In this document: positions 10,720 to 27,593 of the stretch, one piece after another | Position numbering within the stretch: position 1 is the stretch's first letter | How the letters are laid out: each line of letters starts with the position of its first letter | Origin: a virus | IMG/VR virus record: IMGVR_UViG_3300034356_002131 | Location: 1 to 27,593 of that record | DNA length: 27,593 nucleotides | Strand: one strand, 5' to 3' | The notes under the pieces: model-generated | Seen by the model: the letters and a program-made list of their open reading frames with translations, nothing else | The model's database searches: none | What the model was told of the DNA's origin: nothing | Translations under genes and position numbers: made by a program

Positions 10720-10727
10720 TATTTATC
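10720..10727 (-). promoter_or_regulatory. Late promoter -10 box for gp6
   Basis: On the minus strand this reads GATAAATA followed by CTT, 7 of 8 to the T4 late consensus TATAAATA. It lies 19 bases before the gp6 ATG, in the 56-base gap after gp25. This is the kind of site recognised by a gp55-type sigma factor, whose gene is in this window. Confidence 0.65.
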
Positions 10728-11222: not shown

Positions 11223-11230
11223 TATTTATG
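11223..11230 (-). promoter_or_regulatory. Late promoter -10 box for gp25, overlapping the gene 5 stop
   Basis: CATAAATA on the minus strand matches 7 of 8 positions of the T4 late box. The TAA inside it (11226-11228) is the stop codon of gene 5. It lies 17 bases before the gp25 ATG. Confidence 0.6.
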
Positions 11231-14520: not shown

Positions 14521-17082
14521 TTATGGACCCAAGCCTATGCTTAAGTCTCTATTATTTATAGGAGCAATACCCGGTGGTTCTTCTTCTTCTCTACCACCCT
14601 GTGCTGACGGAGTTACATTAGTTGTACCAGTACTAGCATCATCATCTGCTACATTTTTCACAACAAATTGTCCACCATTAATCTGTGCCCCGGCTGAGCT
14701 ATTGGTTGCTTCTCCACCAAGCCCAGGAGGTGCAGATACGTTGTTGCTACCTCCCGTAGGGGATGTTATTGAATTCATCGGCGGGTCACTTCTGTTCAAT
14801 GCTATTTGATTTTCCGCTTGTTGTGACGCAATATTAGGATCCAATCCTGCCAATTCATCCGGTAATAATCCAGTTACTCCGTCAGTAGAGCCATTGGCAT
14901 TAGTTGTAGCAGTTGTCCCTGCTTGTGAGGTAGATTGTCTAACATCTGAACTATTCAGTGCATCTCTTGTATTATTTTCTCTAGTTGCCCCTGCTTTTTG
15001 ATCGTCTTGTTCCGCTCCTGGGAATGTGTAAATTCTACCCTTAAGTTGTTGTGTAAATTTACCACGACTAAAATCACTATCTACACTAATAAGCAAGTAG
15101 TGTATACCTTTTACATTTTTTACACTTTTTGGATATTTCCAAAATAATAACGATTCGTTAATACTCATTAATCCATCTTCGTTTTTATAATCAACACCTT
15201 CTTTAAAATTTATTTGTATAAAAACTTGACCACCGTTAGCATTAATAGTGAACCCATCTGGACCATAAAACTGACTATACACTTGATTCAATGATCCGGA
15301 CGAATCACTCATCAAATAATCCGGATCACCCATAATACTTACTTTTGCTTCTGCAAAACCTTTTGGATCAAATAAACTAGTTAGATATGAGTTCTGTGGG
15401 CCCAATCCAACATCGGGGGCACCTTGTCTAGGTTGATTATCGTGTCGGTCTGTAACCTGTGACACATCTATTTCACCACCATGTGAAGCAGGATCATTAG
15501 ACGGATCCAATGCAACCATGTAATATGCATTGTTTAATACCTGTTCATAGCTTATTACTTCTGTGTTTTTACCGGTGAACCAATAATCATAAATTTTATG
15601 TGGACCATAATAATTTGAAGTTTTATGTATATATGGGCTTATTGCAGCCGGTGTTTCATATGGTTGAATTACATATGTTATTTTATATGCAAAATCATTT
15701 CGCTTGGTATCCCATTCTAAACACTCAACTCTAGAACTTAAATTATACCATTTAATTCTTGCTGGATTTTTCTCTTGCTTTTCAGCATCACTACCGGTAT
15801 TACTATCCAAACTAGTGTCTTTAAGTATTTTCATTGCATCAGACAAATATGTACTTTGTTTAATAATATCACTGATTGCCTGTAAAATACTAGTATCATT
15901 AGAAAAAGTAATTGTTCTTTTGGTAAAGTCCGGATTTCTACTTTTTAATGCAGTAGATTCATTTGATTCTGCTGTGGTTGTTGCATTTCCCATTGGCAAC
16001 CGTGAAGGGTCAATACTAGCTACATCAACCAATCTAGCAGTCTTGATCGAGTCTGCATTTCCAATATATTCAACATAATATTCGTTTGGTCTACTAATTT
16101 CTTGTTTATCATATCTATCTTGTTCGTTTTGATTCAACACTTTCATCAAACTTTTTATCCCAGGACCTCTGCCATTTAATGCTTCTTCCACTGACGAGGC
16201 CACAATATTTTGACCATTACTTATTCTGCCACGTTTAACACCATATGCGGTGTCTGGCGCAAGTGAGTTTGCTTCAATTTTATATGTTGATATTTTTCCA
16301 TCAAGCGTAAATTTCATGTTAGTAATAACACAATCATAAAATCTTTCAAATACTCCACTAGATATGTTTGGTTGTTTAGTGTCAATAATGCCACTATCTT
16401 TTGCCGATAGCAAATTGCCATTGATATCATATCCTTGAAATCTTATACCTAAAATATAAAACTGTTTTAATTCATTTGATACCTGAGTATAATTTTTTAT
16501 TCTACTACGTTGTTGTAGGGCTGATGATGCTTGCCGTAATTTAGATATAAAAGAAAATCCATATGGTTCATATATATTGAACGATAGTTTTGTTGTGTTA
16601 GATTCTGTTGTTGTATCCGGTCCTTGTATGGCATTTTTTATTTTTAAATCATCTATGTAGAAATCTAACTCAAAACCCGGTGCACGTTTATTACCGGTAG
16701 GACTGTTAATGCCACCACTTTGTGCTATTAAAAATGCACCGCCGGTATCTTGATTAGCCAAGACATTAATATTTTTTCTACCCGAATCCGTAAATGCACC
16801 GTATGCATCGGGAGTTATCATATATAAACTGATTTGATATGTATAGCTTGCAAAATTACCTAAGGGATTATAAGTGCGTTTACCCGGTCTAGTTCCTACT
16901 ACTCCCCCTACACCTGTACTTGGTTTTGGTCTGTCTGCTGTTATGGTTATTGTGCCTAATTCGGTTGGTGTACTAGAATCAGGCGGAGGTGTAGTGTTCG
17001 CTATTTCGGCCGCGGCAGTCTGTTTATTATAACTGTTATCATCATCAGGAGGACCGGTTAGAACATTACCTTCTACTGACAT
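14521..17082 (-). CDS. Structural protein, probable baseplate hub (gp27-like role)
   Basis: The 853-residue protein lies between gp53 and gp5. Its ATG (17080-17082) follows the gp53 TAA directly, with AGGA 6 bases upstream, so the genes are probably translationally coupled. N- and C-terminal tails of about 60 and 160 residues are Pro/Gly/Ser/Thr/Asn-rich and probably disordered. The core (about 75-690) is mixed alpha/beta, with segments such as YTYQISLYMITPDAYGAF, FELDFYIDDLKIKNAI, SFNIYEPYGFSFI, ECLEWDTKRNDFAYKITYVIQPYETP and YYGPHKIYDYWFTGKNTEV. I do not recognise a named T4 homologue by sequence. Being next to gp5 and having this size suggest the hub trimer that holds gp5 (gp27 in T4, 391 residues), but that is inference from context. 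A virion structural role is well supported. Confidence 0.72.
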   Translation of the reverse strand: MSVEGNVLTGPPDDDNSYNKQTAAAEIANTTPPPDSSTPTELGTITITADRPKPSTGVGGVVGTRPGKRTYNPLGNFASYTYQISLYMITPDAYGAFTDSGRKNINVLANQDTGGAFLIAQSGGINSPTGNKRAPGFELDFYIDDLKIKNAIQGPDTTTESNTTKLSFNIYEPYGFSFISKLRQASSALQQRSRIKNYTQVSNELKQFYILGIRFQGYDINGNLLSAKDSGIIDTKQPNISSGVFERFYDCVITNMKFTLDGKISTYKIEANSLAPDTAYGVKRGRISNGQNIVASSVEEALNGRGPGIKSLMKVLNQNEQDRYDKQEISRPNEYYVEYIGNADSIKTARLVDVASIDPSRLPMGNATTTAESNESTALKSRNPDFTKRTITFSNDTSILQAISDIIKQSTYLSDAMKILKDTSLDSNTGSDAEKQEKNPARIKWYNLSSRVECLEWDTKRNDFAYKITYVIQPYETPAAISPYIHKTSNYYGPHKIYDYWFTGKNTEVISYEQVLNNAYYMVALDPSNDPASHGGEIDVSQVTDRHDNQPRQGAPDVGLGPQNSYLTSLFDPKGFAEAKVSIMGDPDYLMSDSSGSLNQVYSQFYGPDGFTINANGGQVFIQINFKEGVDYKNEDGLMSINESLLFWKYPKSVKNVKGIHYLLISVDSDFSRGKFTQQLKGRIYTFPGAEQDDQKAGATRENNTRDALNSSDVRQSTSQAGTTATTNANGSTDGVTGLLPDELAGLDPNIASQQAENQIALNRSDPPMNSITSPTGGSNNVSAPPGLGGEATNSSAGAQINGGQFVVKNVADDDASTGTTNVTPSAQGGREEEEPPGIAPINNRDLSIGLGP
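14553..14560 (-). promoter_or_regulatory. Late promoter -10 box for gp5 (exact T4 consensus)
   Basis: The minus strand reads TATAAATA, identical to the T4 late box. It lies inside the last codons of the upstream 853-residue structural gene and 48 bases before the gp5 ATG, so gp5 and the genes after it can have their own late transcript. Confidence 0.7.
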
Positions 17083-17394
17083 TTATAATCCTAACAATTG
17101 TTTTAATAAATTTGATTTAGGCAAATATATACCTACACCTGTTACAAAATCAAAATATGGATCTTTTAATCTATTTGAATTTCTTGCGGCAAATACCCAC
17201 CATAATCTGCTATCAGCATATAAGTCATATGCTAATAAGTCAGGGCGATATTCATATACCATAGTGATTTCCCAATAGATATCAGATGGTTGTTTAACAA
17301 TAGGTCTATCTATCATTACATCTAAAAACTTACCATTAACTACATCAGTGTTGTAATATGGACTTGTTGCTGGATAAAGTGTATTGTTTGCCAT
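17083..17394 (-). CDS. gp53: Baseplate wedge subunit gp53
   Basis: This 103-residue wedge protein matches the gp53 family (NTLYPATSPYYNTDV, PSDIYWEITMVYEYRPDLLAYDLY, SRLWWVFAARNSNRLKDPYFDF, GVGIYLP). In T4, gp53 (196 residues) joins wedges at the inner baseplate; here only the conserved LysM-like core is present. The ATG at 17394 is chosen over an in-frame TTG at 17400 because GGAGG lies 9 bases before it. The A of the upstream gene's TAA is also the A of this ATG (TAATG), a classic translational coupling. The 853-residue gene starts immediately after its stop, so these three genes act as one tight translational unit. Confidence 0.93.
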   Translation of the reverse strand: MANNTLYPATSPYYNTDVVNGKFLDVMIDRPIVKQPSDIYWEITMVYEYRPDLLAYDLYADSRLWWVFAARNSNRLKDPYFDFVTGVGIYLPKSNLLKQLLGL

Positions 17395-18680
17395 TACCAA
17401 ATTCCTCCGCCATCTCGTTTACTGCCTTGAAGCAATGTACCAGTAGCATATTCTCTTAAACTAAACTTAGTGCTTATATCATTTCTTGTAACAATCGGAT
17501 TAGCTGTCAATGTTATTTGCATTTTAGTAGGTACATATGTTGGTTGTGTATTTGTCGCCTTAGTGAACCTAGGTGCTGCCGCTCCTCCGCCTGCTACTAG
17601 TCCATTTGCACCTAATCTACGACAAGATACTCCATTATCTACTAACCCTGGTTCTTCTTGGTATTGATACATAGCGGCATCAACCCCCGGTTGTAATGTT
17701 GGACTACCTGCACGTATATAGTCCACATCATTGGGTAGGCTATAATTAAAATTAGTTATAACTAAAGGATGCTTGTCAAACTGAAATTCTCCTAATCCAG
17801 AAAGATAACACAATGGCGGGGGTACTCCGGGTCCGGGCTGTTGGTCTTTACCATAAAACATTTTAGTGACACTACGGAAGAAATGTATTACTGCTAATAA
17901 ATAATTTGCTTCAAATGAATCTTGTGCGGTAAAGTCACACGTGATTGTTAATTGGTCTACACTACTATTCTTATATTGAAATAGTTTGTAATTGCTGTGT
18001 ACTAGATCCGATGGTTCATAGTGTGCGGCATAGTTAACAGATATACTTGGTGTGTATGGGAATACTACACCGTCAGTCTTTTGTAAATATCCTAATATGC
18101 CAGGATTCTCTGCTTTATATAAGTAACCGGCATCAGGGGCTAAACTTAGTCGTACACGCCAATCACCTTTTGTTTTTGCATTTTCTGCATCTTGTGTAAT
18201 CTGTCTGGCTCTAGCGTTCTCAACTGACCCTTGCAGACCTTGCATTCCACCATATGCACCTATTATATCTTGTTCTGTGCGTGGTAGGATTTCACCATTT
18301 AATGCTTCAGCTTCCAGTCTAGCTTTTTCAATTGCATCGTCTACATTAATAGTTGCCGGTGCAGGATTCTGTATTGTTTCACTACCCAGATTAGTATTTG
18401 GATCTGTATTTGGATCAACAGTTAATTGTCCACGTGACAGTTGTTCGGTATCGTTACCTACATTAGTATTTGGATCATTAGCGGCTACTGTTAAATTAGA
18501 TAGTTGTGATTGTAAACTAGCCAAAGAAGTCTGTGCAAAAAACAAACTTCTTTCTAAATTAGCAATTACTGCAGGGTCTGGATTAGGTGACCCTGCAGCC
18601 TGATCCAATTGAAGTTCTAATGATGCTACTTGAGCCGTTGCTAAAGCAATATCGGCTTCTAATTGAGCTTGTGATGCCAT
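17394..18680 (-). CDS. Baseplate tail-tube cap/initiator protein, gp48/gp54-like
   Basis: The 428-residue protein opens the minus-strand structural operon. Residues 1-65 are Ala/Leu/Gln-rich with heptad-like spacing and look coiled coil. Residues about 65-145 contain Asp/Asn/Pro/Thr repeats (DPNTN twice, DPNTDPNTNLG) and are probably a flexible linker. The conserved part starts near residue 155: WRVRLSLAPDAGYLYKAE, then GVVFPYTPSISVNYAAHYEP, KNSSVDQLTITCDFTAQDSFEANYLLAVIHFFRSVTKMFYGKDQ, PPPLCYLSGLGEFQFDKHPLVITNF, and the end KMQITLTANPIVTRNDISTKFSLREYA. This is the module annotated as tube cap in T4-like cyanophages; T4 gp48 and gp54 both cap the baseplate and start the tube, and I cannot tell which one this represents. 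The RBS (AAGGA) is about 13 bases from the ATG, somewhat far. Confidence 0.82.
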   Translation of the reverse strand: MASQAQLEADIALATAQVASLELQLDQAAGSPNPDPAVIANLERSLFFAQTSLASLQSQLSNLTVAANDPNTNVGNDTEQLSRGQLTVDPNTDPNTNLGSETIQNPAPATINVDDAIEKARLEAEALNGEILPRTEQDIIGAYGGMQGLQGSVENARARQITQDAENAKTKGDWRVRLSLAPDAGYLYKAENPGILGYLQKTDGVVFPYTPSISVNYAAHYEPSDLVHSNYKLFQYKNSSVDQLTITCDFTAQDSFEANYLLAVIHFFRSVTKMFYGKDQQPGPGVPPPLCYLSGLGEFQFDKHPLVITNFNYSLPNDVDYIRAGSPTLQPGVDAAMYQYQEEPGLVDNGVSCRRLGANGLVAGGGAAAPRFTKATNTQPTYVPTKMQITLTANPIVTRNDISTKFSLREYATGTLLQGSKRDGGGIW

Positions 18681-18702: not shown

Positions 18703-18710
18703 TATTTATC
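18703..18710 (-). promoter_or_regulatory. Late promoter -10 box for the baseplate operon
   Basis: GATAAATA on the minus strand, 22 bases before the tube-cap ATG, matches 7 of 8 of the T4 late box. It directly abuts a plus-strand GCTAAATA (18711-18718), so the two boxes form a back-to-back inverted pair in the divergent gap. Confidence 0.6.
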
Positions 18711-18718
18711 GCTAAATA
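18711..18718 (+). promoter_or_regulatory. Possible late-type box facing gp55
   Basis: GCTAAATA on the plus strand is one base different from the ACTAAATA that precedes the tape-measure-like gene. It could give late transcription of gene 55 itself. It is a relaxed match (6 of 8 to the T4 consensus) and lies 87 bases before the gp55 start, so this is tentative. Confidence 0.3.
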
Positions 18719-18753
18719 AAAGTGCTAATTTTACCCTTTTCACTAAAAAATTG

Positions 18754-18782
18754 TTGCTTTTCTGCAACTATTGTGTTACACT
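18754..18782 (+). promoter_or_regulatory. Possible sigma70-type promoter for gp55
   Basis: TTGCTT (18754-18759) and TACACT (18777-18782) are separated by 17 bases, with an extended -10 TG at 18774-18775. The predicted start would be near 18789, about 17 bases before the gp55 ATG. The spacer contains a perfect 5-bp hairpin (GTTGC/GCAAC, 18753-18767). An early or middle promoter is needed here because gp55 must be made before late transcription, but the -35 match is poor. Confidence 0.4.
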
Positions 18783-18805
18783 ACATCAAACATACTAAGG
18801 AAACT

Positions 18806-19717
18806 ATGTCACTACTCCCGGCTCCGCGTAAACCTGTCAACTATTTAAATAATAAAGACATTCTAAAAGAGATACACGAAAGTAAAAACGCATACTGCCA
18901 CTTTACAAAACCAGAATATCATCGCTATGACTTCATTGTAGATATGCCCCAAGCTCCAATTGAAGACAGTCTGGCATATGCTTTTAAACCCGAAACCATT
19001 CAGCAAGCAAAAGAAACACGTGCATTACGATTAAGTTTGGAAGCAGGAACAAAAGATTCAGTTTTACCCGATTCAATAGAATTAACAGATTTAGTATTTC
19101 GTATAATGACTTGGGATCATGTTCCAGTCGCACCAAAACAACCCCGCAAAACAGTTAAAAAGAAAACAGCAAAGGATATATTTGAGTTTGAAGAACCAAA
19201 CCCAGATGAGATTTTTGCTGACCTAGAAGATAATACTACCAAAGCTGAAGTAGATGATATGGTTCACGTTAAAGTAAACTTTCCACCATTCCAACATTAT
19301 AAAATTGACAGCAACAACACATTCTATTGTGTGGGTAAAAGTCATTGGGAAGGTACTTTAGAAATAGGTAACTTCAATAAAGATCATGGCACTATTACTA
19401 ATAAACTCGCCCGTATGTATATTATGATGTGCGAAAAATATGCAATGAAATATAATTGGCGTGGATATACGTACAATGACGAAATGCGTAACTCAGCTAT
19501 CCTTCAACTAACATATGTTGGCTTACGATTCAATGAAGCTAAGTCTGCTAACCCATTCGCTTACTATACGGCTGCTATAACAAATAGTTTTTGCCGTGTA
19601 TTGAATACAGAAAAACGTAATCAAAACATACGTGATGATATCTTAGAAATTAACGGTCTTAACCCAAGTTGGAGCCGTCAAGGTTCCGGGTCAAGTAGTA
19701 CAGTTTACGAAGAATAA
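18806..19717 (+). CDS. gp55: RNA polymerase sigma factor for late transcription, gp55
   Basis: The 303-residue protein is the phage sigma factor that directs host RNA polymerase to late promoters. The gp55 signature fills about residues 196-292: TNKLARMYIMMCEKYAMKYNWRGYTYNDEMRNSAILQLTYVGLRFNEAKSANPFAYYTAAITNSFCRVLNTEKR, ending in RNQNIRDDILEINGLNPSWSRQ; this is the region-2-like core. T4 gp55 has 185 residues. The extension here is N-terminal: residues 11-50 (NYLNNKDILKEIHESKNAYC) form a conserved-looking motif, and about 105-150 is a Lys/Glu/Asp-rich linker. The ATG at 18806 is chosen over an in-frame GTG at 18722 because AAGGA precedes it by 4 bases. The C-terminus is Ser/Gly-rich. It is the first gene of the plus-strand 55-47-46-nuclease block. 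Confidence 0.92.
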   Translation: MSLLPAPRKPVNYLNNKDILKEIHESKNAYCHFTKPEYHRYDFIVDMPQAPIEDSLAYAFKPETIQQAKETRALRLSLEAGTKDSVLPDSIELTDLVFRIMTWDHVPVAPKQPRKTVKKKTAKDIFEFEEPNPDEIFADLEDNTTKAEVDDMVHVKVNFPPFQHYKIDSNNTFYCVGKSHWEGTLEIGNFNKDHGTITNKLARMYIMMCEKYAMKYNWRGYTYNDEMRNSAILQLTYVGLRFNEAKSANPFAYYTAAITNSFCRVLNTEKRNQNIRDDILEINGLNPSWSRQGSGSSSTVYEE

Positions 19718-22886: not shown

Positions 22887-23441
22887 ATGACTTCACCACA
22901 AAAAGCAAAAGGATCTGGTTTCGAACGAGAGGTAGCAAAATTCCTCTCAGTATTATATGGCGAGAGCTTTATAAGAGCACCTGGTTCCGGAGCTTACATT
23001 GGTGGTAAAAATCAACACAGAACAACAGTATTACACGAAGGTCAAGTACGTTCTTTTAAGGGCGACATTGTTCCCGGTCAAAGTTTTAGTAAAATGAACA
23101 TTGAATGTAAGTTCTATGCAGATTTTCCTTTTCACTTACTACTTTCAGGCGACTGTAAAGTAATAAATACATGGATTGAACAATTAATGGATGTTGCCGA
23201 AGAGGGTGATGTAAATTTATTGTTTATGAAGTTTAATAGAAAAGGTCGTTATGTTGCCGTGCAATGCGGCTCAACTTGGATAACAGACAATTTTGTCTAT
23301 TATTCGTCAAGCAAGTTTGGCGATTGGTTAATCGTTGAATTTGATGACTTTTTCAAACACAACAGTACATTATTAAAAACCTATTCAGGTACACCAGACA
23401 CCACGTCAAACCCAGCTGTTATTAATATCCCAACAACTTAA
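22887..23441 (+). CDS. PD-(D/E)XK nuclease, archaeal Hjc-type Holliday junction resolvase-like
   Basis: The 184-residue protein carries the Hjc-like pattern: GSGFEREVAKFLS (Glu 13), FIRAPGSGA (28-36), GDIV (Asp 60) and IECK (Glu 73, Lys 75). These are the expected metal and catalytic residues of the PD-(D/E)XK fold. Hjc enzymes cut four-way junctions, and its place just after 47 and 46 fits junction resolution or end processing, the job of unrelated gp49 (endonuclease VII) in T4. A different PD-(D/E)XK specificity is possible. The ATG at 22887 is preferred because it sits 7 codons before the family core. An in-frame ATG at 22812 would overlap gp46 by 41 bases and add 25 residues with no homology-like features. 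No strong RBS is seen for either start. The C-terminal 25 residues are Thr/Ser/Pro-rich. Confidence 0.8.
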   Translation: MTSPQKAKGSGFEREVAKFLSVLYGESFIRAPGSGAYIGGKNQHRTTVLHEGQVRSFKGDIVPGQSFSKMNIECKFYADFPFHLLLSGDCKVINTWIEQLMDVAEEGDVNLLFMKFNRKGRYVAVQCGSTWITDNFVYYSSSKFGDWLIVEFDDFFKHNSTLLKTYSGTPDTTSNPAVINIPTT

Positions 23442-23459
23442 TTAAAATAAAAATCTGTT

Positions 23460-23943
23460 GTCTGAGTTTGTCAGACCTCCTTGAAGATGCGGTTAAACGC
23501 TGATGGATCTGGAGTAAGCATAGTTAGTGATAACTATGGAATACCGAGAGGGCAATCGACAAAGCGAACCCTCAACAAGCTCACCCTTACTTTATCTTTG
23601 CGGGGTGAGAAGTGCGTTGCTGAAGAATCAATTGAAAGACCATTGATAGCTTCACTACAGTCCCATAACTTTACAGAGCAACCGGTAGCGTTTAGTAGCA
23701 ACAAATAGCTAATTAGACGGGGAAAAGATAACAAAGGATGACGGGCATGGCAAATACCCTTAACCATTGGTAGTGCTGAATAGCACTACCATGGCTTCAA
23801 AGCGGCAATATAATCCTTATATTATAAAGAGTAAAAAACAATAATTAACCGTAAAGATTAAGAACGAACGAAGTGAGTTCTTAGATGAACGAAGTTCATC
23901 TTTACAAAGATATCCCGATGTGATAAATGAACAGTTACGGGAT
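23460..23943 (+). ncRNA. Large structured RNA with a group I intron-like core
   Basis: This region between two convergent genes has no convincing gene but many perfect stems. A group I-type core can be drawn. P3 is CGGTTAA/TTAACCG (23490-23496 with 23845-23851). P4 is ACGCT/AGCGT (23497-23501 with 23687-23691). P6 is TTAG/CTAA (23692-23695 with 23709-23712), stacked directly after P4. P7 is C, bulged G, GGGA (23718-23723) with TCCCG (23913-23917), forming a pseudoknot with P3. P8 is TAAAG/CTTTA (23852-23856 with 23900-23904), enclosing two hairpins. J8/7 is AAAGATA (23906-23912). Other stems are 23460-23476, 23519-23538 (GTGA tetraloop), 23548-23573, 23580-23609, 23621-23654, 23769-23790 (9 bp) and 23807-23823. 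The order and the P7 bulge fit group I ribozymes, and hairpins between P7 and P3 fit subgroup IA. P5, P1 and both splice sites are unresolved. Confidence 0.55.
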
Positions 23944-23946
23944 TAG

Positions 23947-24123
23947 TTAGAAGAATGGTAGCCCTGATTTCTTAGTTGTTTCTAAATTACTATTAATCAA
24001 TTCACTTAGGTGCTTACGTTCATCCAAAGACATATTTAAAATATCTTCATAGGATATTCCACCTCTCATGTACCAAGATAAAGTTAATGCATTTTTCTTT
24101 ATCTCAGAACATTCTTTTTCCAT
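23947..24123 (-). CDS. Small conserved phage protein after gp26 (gp51-position hub gene)
   Basis: A 58-codon frame lies directly downstream of gp26. The product has a charged N-terminus (MEKECSEIKKN), the striking core LTLSWYMRGGISYEDILNMSLDERKHLSELI and the end TTKKSGLPFF, a pattern I associate with small conserved proteins next to gp26 in T4-like marine phages. In T4, gp26 is followed by gene 51, a catalyst of hub assembly, so a hub-assembly role is plausible from position only; sequence homology to T4 gp51 is not shown. The frame is open further upstream to about 24176 with family-like residues (LYLKPEEIQKLIDD) but no ATG, GTG or TTG. A CTG at 24165, just after AAGG, is a possible longer start. 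The ATG used here has only a weak RBS. Confidence 0.7.
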   Translation of the reverse strand: MEKECSEIKKNALTLSWYMRGGISYEDILNMSLDERKHLSELINSNLETTKKSGLPFF

Positions 24124-24170
24124 ATCATCTATCAGCTTCTGTATCTCTTCAGGCTTTAAGTACAGAAGCC

Positions 24171-25001
24171 TTAACCGAAAAAATCAGACACATTTAATGT
24201 GAAGCTCTTTTCATATTCGTGTTGGCAATGGATACATTTGATTTTCAATGGTTTCAACTCAGCATCTTCTTTGATTTTTTCATGGTATTCTTTAATAGAG
24301 TTATATGCAATCTTGTCACAATTTTCTAAGAAATCCAAAATAAACTCAATGTTATCTACTATGGCTGATGGAGTTTTGATATACTCAATAGTACTAGCCA
24401 AAACTTTCATAGTCACATTAGTTATCATACTAAGTGCTTCTTTTGTTTTGTTTGCACGTTCAACTGGATCTTGTAGTGATTCAATGTTTGCAAACATTTT
24501 TTGCAATTCAAATTGACTTAAGTTGACCTGATTCATTTCTTTGTATGTTAATGGTTTGAATTTAATATAAAGATCGTTGACTAGTAACTCATCATTGTAA
24601 TTGCCGGATTTAAGTGAGGATAGAATACCAACTAAGTTTACATTATATTTGGATTCTTCTTGGCAAGCTGGACAGCCGGTTTCAATCTCCATGTCATTAC
24701 CATTGGATGCACTACGAATAGCAATCAATACAGCGTCCATATCAATACTATTAATTTTCCAAGGTTCTTTAATATCCGGAATACAGCTTTTTATTAGTTC
24801 AACTACGGCTGACCCATTAAACAATGCGTCTGGTGTTTTTGATGTGATATCGTCAATAGCTGTCATAGGATAAACGGGTAGTTCACCTGTTTCAGTTTGG
24901 TTAATAACTCCGGGTTCATAGAATTTTCCCTTGCTGGGCAGGGTAATATAAATGGCTGGTCTACGAAAATACTGTTTTAATGGGTTGTGTTCTAAAGTCA
25001 T
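24171..25001 (-). CDS. gp26: Baseplate hub subunit gp26-like (T4 baseplate hub family)
   Basis: The 276-residue protein matches the T4 baseplate-hub gp26 type of T4-like marine phages: LKQYFRRPAIYITLPSKGKFY, YPMTAIDDITSKTPDALFNG, VVELIKSCIPDIKEPW and IDMDAVLIAIRSASNGNDMEI. Two CxxC pairs (Cys 110 and 113 in CPAC; Cys 256 and 259 in CIHC) probably bind one zinc ion across the sequence, joining the N- and C-terminal parts. The region between is helical with a conserved FKPLTYKEMNQV. T4 gp26 has 208 residues. The ATG at 25001 follows AGGA by 6 bases. The stop lies 47 bases before the ATG of the small downstream gene. A late box faces it at 25051-25058. Confidence 0.83.
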   Translation of the reverse strand: MTLEHNPLKQYFRRPAIYITLPSKGKFYEPGVINQTETGELPVYPMTAIDDITSKTPDALFNGSAVVELIKSCIPDIKEPWKINSIDMDAVLIAIRSASNGNDMEIETGCPACQEESKYNVNLVGILSSLKSGNYNDELLVNDLYIKFKPLTYKEMNQVNLSQFELQKMFANIESLQDPVERANKTKEALSMITNVTMKVLASTIEYIKTPSAIVDNIEFILDFLENCDKIAYNSIKEYHEKIKEDAELKPLKIKCIHCQHEYEKSFTLNVSDFFG

Positions 25002-25032
25002 AAATTATCCTAAAAGATGGCGTTTGCCTAAT

Positions 25033-25040
25033 ACTAAATA
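25033..25040 (+). promoter_or_regulatory. Late promoter box for the tape-measure-like gene
   Basis: ACTAAATA followed by CAATTG resembles the late boxes elsewhere in the window (6 of 8 to TATAAATA). It lies 27 bases before the ATG at 25068. It forms an inverted pair with the minus-strand box at 25051-25058. Confidence 0.5.
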
Positions 25041-25050
25041 CAATTGAAAC

Positions 25051-25058
25051 TATTTAGT
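25051..25058 (-). promoter_or_regulatory. Late promoter box for gp26
   Basis: On the minus strand this is ACTAAATA, identical to the plus-strand box at 25033-25040. It lies 49 bases before the gp26 ATG. The two boxes face each other, so both predicted start points fall near 25045-25046. Confidence 0.5.
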
Positions 25059-25067
25059 GGGTAAAAC

Positions 25068-27593
25068 ATGGCTGATAATAATATTGATCCAGAATTGATT
25101 AGAGAATTAAGCGAAAAATACGAGTCTATGCGTGATGCTATGGCCAGTATGATTCCGGCATTGGTATTAAGTACTGCTTCTATTAATCAAATGCTAGCAG
25201 CCTCAAAAGGGCTGGCTGTCAGTGAAAAAGAGGGCAAAGAAGTAGTAGATGCATTGATTGAAAGTTTTAAAAACACAGCAAAAGCCGCAGATACCGAGAC
25301 TAAAGAAAAAAACAATTCGACCAAACAATGGAGAAATTTAGAAACTAGTTTAAACAATGCAGGAGCAACCTTAAAGGCTTTTGGATCTTCATTAATTAAT
25401 ACTACTAATTCAATGTCCAAATACCAGTCGACCGTTAGTGCTGGTGCTAAAGGTATAACAGATTTAGTTGGATCATTTTTACCCCCTAATGCTTCTATTA
25501 AAATAAAGCTTTTATTTAAGGGTTTTACTGCAGTAATTGATGTATTAAGTTTCTTTGTAGGTAACGTATTCAAGCAAAATGATGCGATGATTAAGTCCTA
25601 CGATAGCTTAAGCGAAGTAGGTGCAACAAGCGCATTAACTACCAATGACATTAGAAAATTAGGGCAGAATGCTGGTTATACATCCGAAAATTTAGACAAA
25701 TTTACTGACATTACTAAAGATTTAGGATCTAATTTAATAGCTATGGGAGGTTCAGCTAGTAAAGGTGTTGTTCAATTTTCAAAACTTGCTACAGTAACAC
25801 AAGCACAACGTGATGGTTTTAACAATTTAGGTATTAGCCAAGAGCAATATACAAAGTTACAAGCTACTTATATCAGGCAGCAGACTGCTGCCGGTATGAT
25901 AATAACTAAATCAACTGAAGGACAACGTAAAGAAGCAAACAAATACATTGATTCGTTAGTTGAATTGGCCGCATTAACTGGAATTTCTGTTCAAAAACAA
26001 CAAGAAGCGTTAGACATAGCTAATGCGGATGAGAACTTTAATCAGTATAAAGCCAATCAAAGTATGAAACGAGAAGCTTTATTAGAACAAGCGGCTAACG
26101 AACAAGATCAAACTCGTAAAAAACAACTCACCGCTCAAGCTGATGCTATTAAAGCTACAATTGACCAAAAAGATGCGTATGCAAAAGTTGCAGTAAGTAC
26201 CATGAGTGCTGCCAATGCAGCCGCAGTTTTGCAAAGTATTTCAACTGACGGTGCAACTGTTTATACTGAATCTAATGCTAAATTATTAATGGCAGGTATT
26301 GATGTTGCTAAACACAATAGAGAAATGAATGCCGGTAGAAGTCAGGAAGTAGAATTATTAGAAGGTCAAGTTAAGGCTACTAGACGATTTAGTAAAATGT
26401 TTGGTAATGCCGCTAGTGCATTTGGAGAAAGCAGTAAAGAACTTCAAAAAGATTTTGGCGTTGATAATAAGATGCGTGAAACTGCCGCACAGTTTGATAA
26501 ACTAAAAACTGAAGAAGGTAAAAAACAATTCTTAGCACAACGAAAATTAAATGCTGACGAAATTGCAGCCAAAAAAGCCGGATTAGGTCCTAAAGACGCT
26601 GCCAAAGACGCACAGAATGCACAGCTTGCAACTGAATTAGCATTTAGGAAAGGGCTAGATGAATTAACAGCAATAATAAGCGGACCTGTTACCGGTGGAT
26701 TTACCTTGTTAATGAAAGCCACAATGTCGCTTGGTAAAACTTTTGCCAACTTATCACATATGTTTGGTGGACCTGATATACGACATTTATTTAAAACTCC
26801 AGAAGAACTTAAAAAAGATGTAGAAGATTTAACTAAACAAGCCAGTAAGTTAGAATCAGCATTAGCCAAAGAAGTAAGTTTAAGAGAAGCTAAAATTAAA
26901 AATGATGAAGAATCAAACAAAAAAGATAAAGAATATCAAGAAGCAAAAAACAAATTAAATGATATAGCAAAAAATAGACCAACTGCAAGTTCATCAGCAA
27001 AAGATATAGAGTCTTGGCAAACTCAACGGGTTGAACAAGATAAACTAGTTAAAAAGTTAGAAGCAGAACGTTCTGTTCTAATTAATAAAGGTTACCAAAT
27101 GAAACGTGAGCTAGAATCACGAGGAATGGGACCCGGAGCAGGCACTGCATATGCTGACAAAATTCGCGGAGATCTAGAAAAGACACGTGCCGAATTAGAA
27201 CAAGCTAAGAAATATGCAACTGATGCAGGTGCGGCTATAGCACCACCTGCGACTACCAGTGCACCAACACCACCTGCGACTGGTGCCCCAACACCGGCCG
27301 CGCCAACCGGACCCAAAACAGTAAAAGAGTTAGAACGTGATCAAGCTAGGGCTACTGCATCCAATAATTTGGGAACAAAAGTTGCCGGACGTGAAGATGA
27401 TATACTTAAGAAAATAAATCTAAAAGGTGGTCAAGGTGGTCAAGCGGTTCAAGGTGGAAAAGCTGACGCAAAATTATTAGATATTGCTGAAAAAATTAAT
27501 GAAATCTTACCCGAAGGAACATTTACAGCACTAAATGATAAATTCCATCAGACTAGGAAAGACGAGAACGGAAACTTAATACCTAGTAAACAC
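25068..27593 (+). CDS. Tail tape-measure-like protein, C-terminus cut off by window edge
   Basis: An ATG at 25068 opens a frame that remains open to the window end (842 residues seen). The product is mostly helical and rich in Lys, Glu, Ala and Gln, with long coiled-coil stretches (about 305-365 and 580-700). One clear hydrophobic segment lies at about 150-168 (FKGFTAVIDVLSFFVGNVF) and there are further apolar helices near 540-560. An Ala/Pro/Thr-rich linker lies at about 720-750 and a GGQGG stretch near 785. These are the usual traits of tail-length tape-measure proteins, and the gene shares a promoter region with hub gene 26. T4's own ruler is gp29 (590 residues); this protein does not look like it in sequence. 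The role is inferred from composition, length and place. An SD-like GTGGG precedes the ATG by 6 bases. Confidence 0.65.
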   Translation, partial: MADNNIDPELIRELSEKYESMRDAMASMIPALVLSTASINQMLAASKGLAVSEKEGKEVVDALIESFKNTAKAADTETKEKNNSTKQWRNLETSLNNAGATLKAFGSSLINTTNSMSKYQSTVSAGAKGITDLVGSFLPPNASIKIKLLFKGFTAVIDVLSFFVGNVFKQNDAMIKSYDSLSEVGATSALTTNDIRKLGQNAGYTSENLDKFTDITKDLGSNLIAMGGSASKGVVQFSKLATVTQAQRDGFNNLGISQEQYTKLQATYIRQQTAAGMIITKSTEGQRKEANKYIDSLVELAALTGISVQKQQEALDIANADENFNQYKANQSMKREALLEQAANEQDQTRKKQLTAQADAIKATIDQKDAYAKVAVSTMSAANAAAVLQSISTDGATVYTESNAKLLMAGIDVAKHNREMNAGRSQEVELLEGQVKATRRFSKMFGNAASAFGESSKELQKDFGVDNKMRETAAQFDKLKTEEGKKQFLAQRKLNADEIAAKKAGLGPKDAAKDAQNAQLATELAFRKGLDELTAIISGPVTGGFTLLMKATMSLGKTFANLSHMFGGPDIRHLFKTPEELKKDVEDLTKQASKLESALAKEVSLREAKIKNDEESNKKDKEYQEAKNKLNDIAKNRPTASSSAKDIESWQTQRVEQDKLVKKLEAERSVLINKGYQMKRELESRGMGPGAGTAYADKIRGDLEKTRAELEQAKKYATDAGAAIAPPATTSAPTPPATGAPTPAAPTGPKTVKELERDQARATASNNLGTKVAGREDDILKKINLKGGQGGQAVQGGKADAKLLDIAEKINEILPEGTFTALNDKFHQTRKDENGNLIPSKH

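Follow-up and report, generated by a model that had tools for sequence, protein, structure and literature searches.

Between a gp26-like gene and a divergent, tape-measure-like gene of a T4-like phage, the 8-mer ACTAAATA occurs once on each strand, and the two copies point toward each other across 10 bp. The locus belongs to a virus record of 27.6 kb, all of which was analysed (the window). It raises the question of what such a facing pair is: two late promoters, a single palindromic element, or a switch between two neighbouring genes. An earlier note on this DNA described the copies as face-to-face late promoter boxes that would admit one polymerase at a time and could set the ratio of hub and tape-measure transcripts. 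The reading favoured here, and held to be likely from the sequence comparisons below, is a compact two-way late promoter: two opposed gp55-type boxes that would start the tape-measure-like gene at about 25046 and gp26 at about 25045.

Position and probable late-promoter identity of the boxes

The pair lies in the 66-bp gap between the ORF at 24171-25001 (minus strand) and the ORF that runs from 25068 onward (plus strand) (Table 1). Its 8-mer arms form a perfect inverted repeat and are the only two exact copies of ACTAAATA in the whole window (shuffle mean 3.4). Among 1000 dinucleotide shuffles of the window, 2 held an exact facing pair with a gap of 0-30; among 20,000 shuffles restricted to the 66-bp intergenic sequence, 1 did. 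The looser facing pair, [AC]TAAATA, appeared in about 222 of the 1000 window shuffles, so its occurrence at some place in the window is nothing unusual; within the shuffled intergenic sequence it appeared 26 times in 20,000. The facing boxes reported in the earlier note, 10 bases apart at 25033-25058, are thus confirmed at these exact coordinates, being rare in shuffles and conserved in relatives. Its predicted starts near 25045-25046 are likewise reproduced when the box is counted as -13 to -6, following the available text of PMC1524935, which gives 25046 on the plus strand and 25045 on the minus strand.

Table 1. Features of the locus and of the late sigma factor gene, in window coordinates
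Feature	Position	Strand	Remarks
Late sigma factor, gp55-like	18722..19717	+	PHROG 12791 'sigma factor for late transcription', E 1.4e-70, residues 37-320; also PHROG 234
Predicted -1 extension of gp26, 76 codons	23950..24177	-	Stop 23947-23949; weak PHROG 18291 match, E 1.5e-5
gp26-like gene	24171..25001	-	Family annotated 'baseplate hub': PHROG 150, E 3.9e-15; PF12322, E 9.1e-16
In-frame -1 slippery heptamer T_TTT_TTC	24177..24183	-	Four codons before the gp26 stop
Late-promoter box ACTAAATA	25033..25040	+	Points right, to the tape-measure-like gene; predicted start ~25046; leader ~22 nt
Spacer between the boxes	25041..25050	.	Contains both predicted starts; poorly conserved
Late-promoter box ACTAAATA (inverted copy)	25051..25058	-	Points left, to gp26; predicted start ~25045; leader ~44 nt
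Tape-measure-like gene	25068..27593	+	Truncated at the window edge; the near-identical contig L001 has it at 1413 aa

T4 late promoters carry TATAAATA at -13 to -6, and the late consensus of Aeromonas phage Aeh1 is given in the available part of the same article as CTAAATA from -12 (PMC1524935). Both window boxes match this documented Aeh1 variant of the 8-bp late box. In the sections available, a review describes late promoters as simple 8-bp boxes with no conserved -35 element (PMC2988020), and the report on the jumbo phage CBB, a relative, predicts ATAAATA before structural genes at 35 sites and lists a gp55-like factor, with no gp33 or gp45 homologue detected (PMC5259590). The window encodes its own gp55-like factor, and like boxes precede four more structural-type minus-strand genes (10720-10726, 11223-11229, 14553-14560 and 18703-18709). 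A scan of 24900-25200 for a sigma-70-type promoter pair found none, a result to be read against shuffles that average only 1.7 and against other elements that could escape the scan. The identity, position and conservation of the two boxes, together with the gp55 gene in the window, give good support to the proposal of two gp55-type late promoters, of which one serves gp26 and the other the tape-measure-like gene.

Late boxes also stand back-to-back at 18703-18718, where TATTTATCGCTAAATA separates a virion-structural gene (17394-18680, minus strand) from the gp55 gene on the plus strand; the arrangement suggests that gp55 may itself be under a late promoter. The same 16-mer is found in records G001, G003 and G005. 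As listed, the gp55 ORF opens with a GTG only 3 nt past the box, ahead of about 18724, where transcription is predicted to start. The true gp55 start is probably downstream of this GTG, because the family match begins at residue 37.

Conservation of the pair among relatives

Loci of gp26 were gathered from viral contigs and named phages (202 loci, many of them one contig met in several scans) and clustered at 90% gp26 identity into 104 clusters. The viral-contig scans supplied the best 80 of 83 relatives and the best 80 of 591, so all counts refer to best matches only. Left out were the window itself (L018), a locus whose match starts inside gp26 (L123), and pieces of T4 and BF (L032-L043). 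Hub proteins of the relatives are 24-60% identical to that of the window in a 19-row alignment. Five IMG/VR contigs are 100% identical to it in gp26, and the nearest named relatives by this protein are jumbo phages, e.g. Agrobacterium phage Atu_ph07 (31% identity).

Among the matches listed, the script scored 89 of the 104 clusters as facing, 6 as back-to-back and 1 as far apart, and it found a single exact box in 7 and no exact box in 1; inspection changed this to 94 facing, 5 back-to-back and 5 with a single exact box. Five clusters were relabelled by hand as facing, either because the script had taken a nearer back-to-back pair (L058, L210) or because the gp26 start was misplaced (L128, L131, L190). 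The cluster scored as far apart (L023) was counted as back-to-back, and three with a degenerate box at the hub-box place (L013, L126, L127) were counted as single, together with L015 (Atu_ph07) and L031 (Vibrio phage 2.275.O). In the latter phage the upstream gene is not divergent and the hub box alone is present. The facing order is not indispensable, since five clusters, those of 121Q, Phosso, XacN1, RAS14 and SCTP-2, carry their boxes back-to-back. On a quick gp26 tree, which is rough and has some long branches, the three layout states need 8 changes against a shuffled mean of 9.9.

A facing TAAATA/TATTTA pair occurs within 130 nt before the hub match in 91 of the 104 cluster representatives among the matches listed, against a shuffled mean of 0.6 and maximum of 3 (200 rounds, the same 104 representatives), the relatives in this comparison being non-independent samples. 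At the level of sequence, this conservation is the strongest evidence that the facing pair is real. Genome-wide enrichment of facing TAAATA pairs is absent from PA5oct (12 against 13 in the reversed control) and from RaK2 (2 against 14). Of the places with a facing pair, 2 of 5 fall in divergent gaps in T4, 2 of 2 in RaK2 and 2 of 2 in BF, the three genomes whose neighbourhoods were checked. BF (L033:1909-1970 = BF 210409-210468) and RaK2 (L221:1132-1193 = RaK2 116132-116191) each have a further facing late pair, placed between a small minus-strand gene and a virion structural protein gene; like facing pairs stand at comparable places in CBB and Munch.

What has been retained is the two boxes rather than the figure they form. 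The core start-to-start distance ranges from 11 to 36 and is most often 14 to 16 across clusters among the matches listed. Over 317 pairs of equal spacing, mean pairwise identity is 90% in the two boxes and 46% in the spacer. Among the listed matches scored as facing by the script, arm identity extends over 8 bases in 31 of 89 clusters and over 7 bases in 52 of 89, and the bases at -12 differ between the two boxes in 37 of 89. The -12 combinations there (27 C/C, 25 A/A, 26 A/C and 9 C/A) are mildly associated, which is what common descent, or a dyad constraint of some kind, would produce. The earlier note had asked for the same 26-base dyad in related phages and named its absence there as a refutation, an outcome that did not occur: facing boxes are indeed present in 94 of the 104 clusters, but the exact dyad, with its fixed spacing and identical arms, is not conserved.

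Because the boxes are conserved, the spacer is much less so and the arms often differ, two late promoters fit better than an RNA hairpin or an operator; judged from the alignments, the pattern is that expected when a single sigma factor reads both boxes, and not that of a palindrome retained as such. In favour of a hairpin, acting as leader structure or terminator, the plus strand at 25020-25070 folds better than shuffles (z -2.78, with 1 of 200 shuffles as good), although the minus strand is unremarkable (z -0.88). The predicted starts, however, lie between the arms, so each transcript would contain one arm only; fully identical arms are kept in the minority of clusters given above; and the window yielded neither a terminator-like site nor an Rfam match at gathering score. 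This reading is very improbable, and the same low probability attaches to a palindromic operator for a dimeric regulator. The perfect inverted repeat formed by the window's arms is what such an operator would look like, but in relatives the arm spacing varies over the whole range of 11 to 36, mismatches between the arms are frequent at -12 and -13, and the identical type of box stands singly before other genes. Both were rejected as main readings on the ground that spacing and arm identity are not kept, a rejection against which the plus-strand z value of -2.78 counts.

The genes on either side

The left-hand gene ends in the window with the codons GAT TTT TTC GGT TAA, which hold an in-frame -1 slippery heptamer. 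A slippery site with an open -1 extension of 70-80 codons is found in 103 of the 103 evaluable clusters among the matches listed, as TTTTTTC in 101 and TTTTTTT in 2; the sequence of the 104th (L085) ends before the gp26 stop. The codon ahead of the two phenylalanines encodes eight different residues and always ends in T. In 87 extensions of equal length, the third positions of the -1 frame vary most (entropy 1.00, 0.68, 1.51), the pattern of a translated protein; in all 87, stops occur in each of the two other frames. Folding downstream of the slippery site is mildly better than in mononucleotide shuffles (mean z -1.45, 35 sampled). Aeromonas phage ZPAH1 has the slippery site and the extension; cyanophage P-SSM4 has the slippery site, and its annotated gp51 falls inside the -1 extension.

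In tail-assembly chaperones of the lambda G/GT type, the short form carries close to its end a -1 slippery heptamer that leads into an open -1 extension; the gene adjoins the tape-measure gene, and frameshifting and tape-measure binding are defining features. The gp26-like gene resembles this type in its heptamer near the end of the short form and its open extension; it adjoins a tape-measure-like gene, which here runs divergently and does not follow it in one operon. Since the heptamer and open extension recur in all evaluable clusters, the 'hub' gene looks like a tail-assembly chaperone of this type, and gp26 is probably its short form. The name 'hub', used in the earlier note, is therefore probably wrong, the frameshift evidence pointing to a chaperone.

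T4 gp26 and gp51 have no such slippery site. Both match PHROG 150, and they are 20% identical to each other (E 1.7e-6 in a two-sequence comparison); the C-terminal part of T4 gp51 has a further match, to PHROG 634, which P-SSM4 gp51 shares. In our reading, short and long forms would be made by frameshifting in most of the group and by two genes (gp26 and gp51) in T4. The available text of one article lists T4 gp26 and gp51 as hub assembly chaperones (PMC3004832), and that of another gives cyanophage gp51 as only about 20% of the usual length (PMC3037559). If the frameshift is true, the short cyanophage gp51 is explained as the -1 extension of gp26 and not as a short gene. The word 'frameshift' is absent from the available portions of the literature checked for it, including these two articles.

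Beyond the extension, about 500 bp without a clear gene (23442-23946) separate it from a resolvase-like gene and contain inverted-repeat-like stretches. A search of 23400-24300 against Rfam returned two weak matches far below the family cut-offs, which were taken as chance.

The right-hand gene is less easily named. Neither the window's plus-strand protein nor the full-length protein of L001 gave a family match. The homologue by position in L006 matches tape-measure families (E 5.2e-6 and 9.8e-5) and also an endolysin family, that of XaC1 matches a tape-measure family (E 0.002), and the RaK2 protein carries an annotation of tape-measure similarity, yet its PHROG is labelled head and packaging. 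With these homologues, tape measure, the name given in the earlier note, is plausible and the best guess for this neighbour, though unproven for the protein encoded in the window.

Occupancy of the pair and comparison with known systems

With both boxes in use, the right-pointing one would start the tape-measure-like gene and the left-pointing one gp26. Each box would lie at about +5 to +13 of the opposite promoter, within its first transcribed stretch, so two polymerases would be unable to occupy both boxes together; polymerase size and geometry alike would allow one polymerase at a time at the adjacent predicted starts. Transcripts of the window would depart in opposite directions without overlap, and with the distances found in relatives the predicted starts range from diverging, 6 nt apart, to overlapping by 19 nt. 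The layout would co-express two tail-assembly genes, the tape-measure-like protein and what the frameshift evidence makes a probable assembly chaperone.

It would also make a short gap suffice for two promoters and two ribosome sites. In named phages the gap measures 53-70 bp with facing boxes (n=9) against 93-154 bp with back-to-back boxes (n=5), which suggests that facing boxes let these elements share a short gap. Some metagenomic loci have facing boxes in gaps of about 105-112 bp (start codons by heuristic), so inheritance matters too; XacN1 and RAS14 have another protein, of about 260 aa, as their divergent neighbour. Since the metagenomic loci and the XacN1/RAS14 neighbour go against it, compaction alone was kept only as a partial explanation of the facing order.

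Whether mutual exclusion goes further and sets the ratio of gp26 to tape-measure transcripts, as the earlier note suggested, is doubtful. Adjacent predicted starts lead one to expect exclusive occupancy, the facing order is retained in most clusters among the matches listed (94 of 104), and at five bidirectional promoters of E. coli strong activation one way represses the other; at basal activity, these same five showed no competition in the part of the source available (PMC12825309). The spacing, moreover, spans 11-36, and five clusters manage with back-to-back boxes. The choice of direction might, speculatively, fall to the orientation of the sliding clamp, because T4 late activation is polar relative to the nicked strand, according to the available text of the review (PMC2988020). 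Such a chooser is improbable; it would apply to any divergent late pair, and in CBB no gp45 or gp33 homologue is detected in the portion of the report available (PMC5259590). A joint reading, in which the pair is a one-polymerase switch whose direction is set by clamp orientation and hence replication polarity, and which is conserved for coupling the synthesis of the tape-measure protein and the frameshifted chaperone, is improbable, distinctly more so than ratio setting by itself. The two-way late promoter favoured here carries no claim of ratio setting.

The closest known system is T4 26/51, which has a homologous left gene (gp26, PHROG 150), divergent late units and both promoters in a 50-bp gap. 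Its divergent late promoters were reportedly the subject of a 1989 paper in Virology by Scarlato and others. The 26 and 51 boxes are annotated as overlapping TATA boxes (GenBank M77695); unlike those of the window, they are back-to-back and overlapping (TATTTATAAATA, 116450-116461), and the right-hand gene is 51, not a tape measure. In the 47-bp divergent gap of T4 4/53 the late boxes also stand face-to-face (core 77351-77369), but between other genes, and the divergent inh/segE gap of T4 has facing late boxes too. With these two examples in T4, the facing geometry is not new to T4-like phages. A literature search for face-to-face promoters in phages, with most older T4 papers outside its scope, gave no match.

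More distant is the likeness to the bacterial bidirectional promoters described by Warman, Grainger and colleagues, in which one short sequence serves two opposed starts and steric exclusion, deduced here from geometry, would apply. In the available text they have one shared -10 element, with starts either side of it or within it, mostly 18 bp apart (PMC12825309), whereas the window has two separate boxes 10 bp apart, adjacent predicted starts between them and no -35 in the sigma-70-type scan. Aeh1 late promoters share the CTAAATA from -12 but are single, the part of the article available describing no divergent pair (PMC1524935). Taken together, these comparisons present overlapping two-way late promoters beside gene 26 as a lasting feature of T4-like phages, uncultured ones included. 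They also offer a natural series, with core distances of 11 to 36 and boxes facing or back-to-back, for how opposed polymerases share a promoter that apparently has no -35 element and, in T4, is driven by a sliding clamp.
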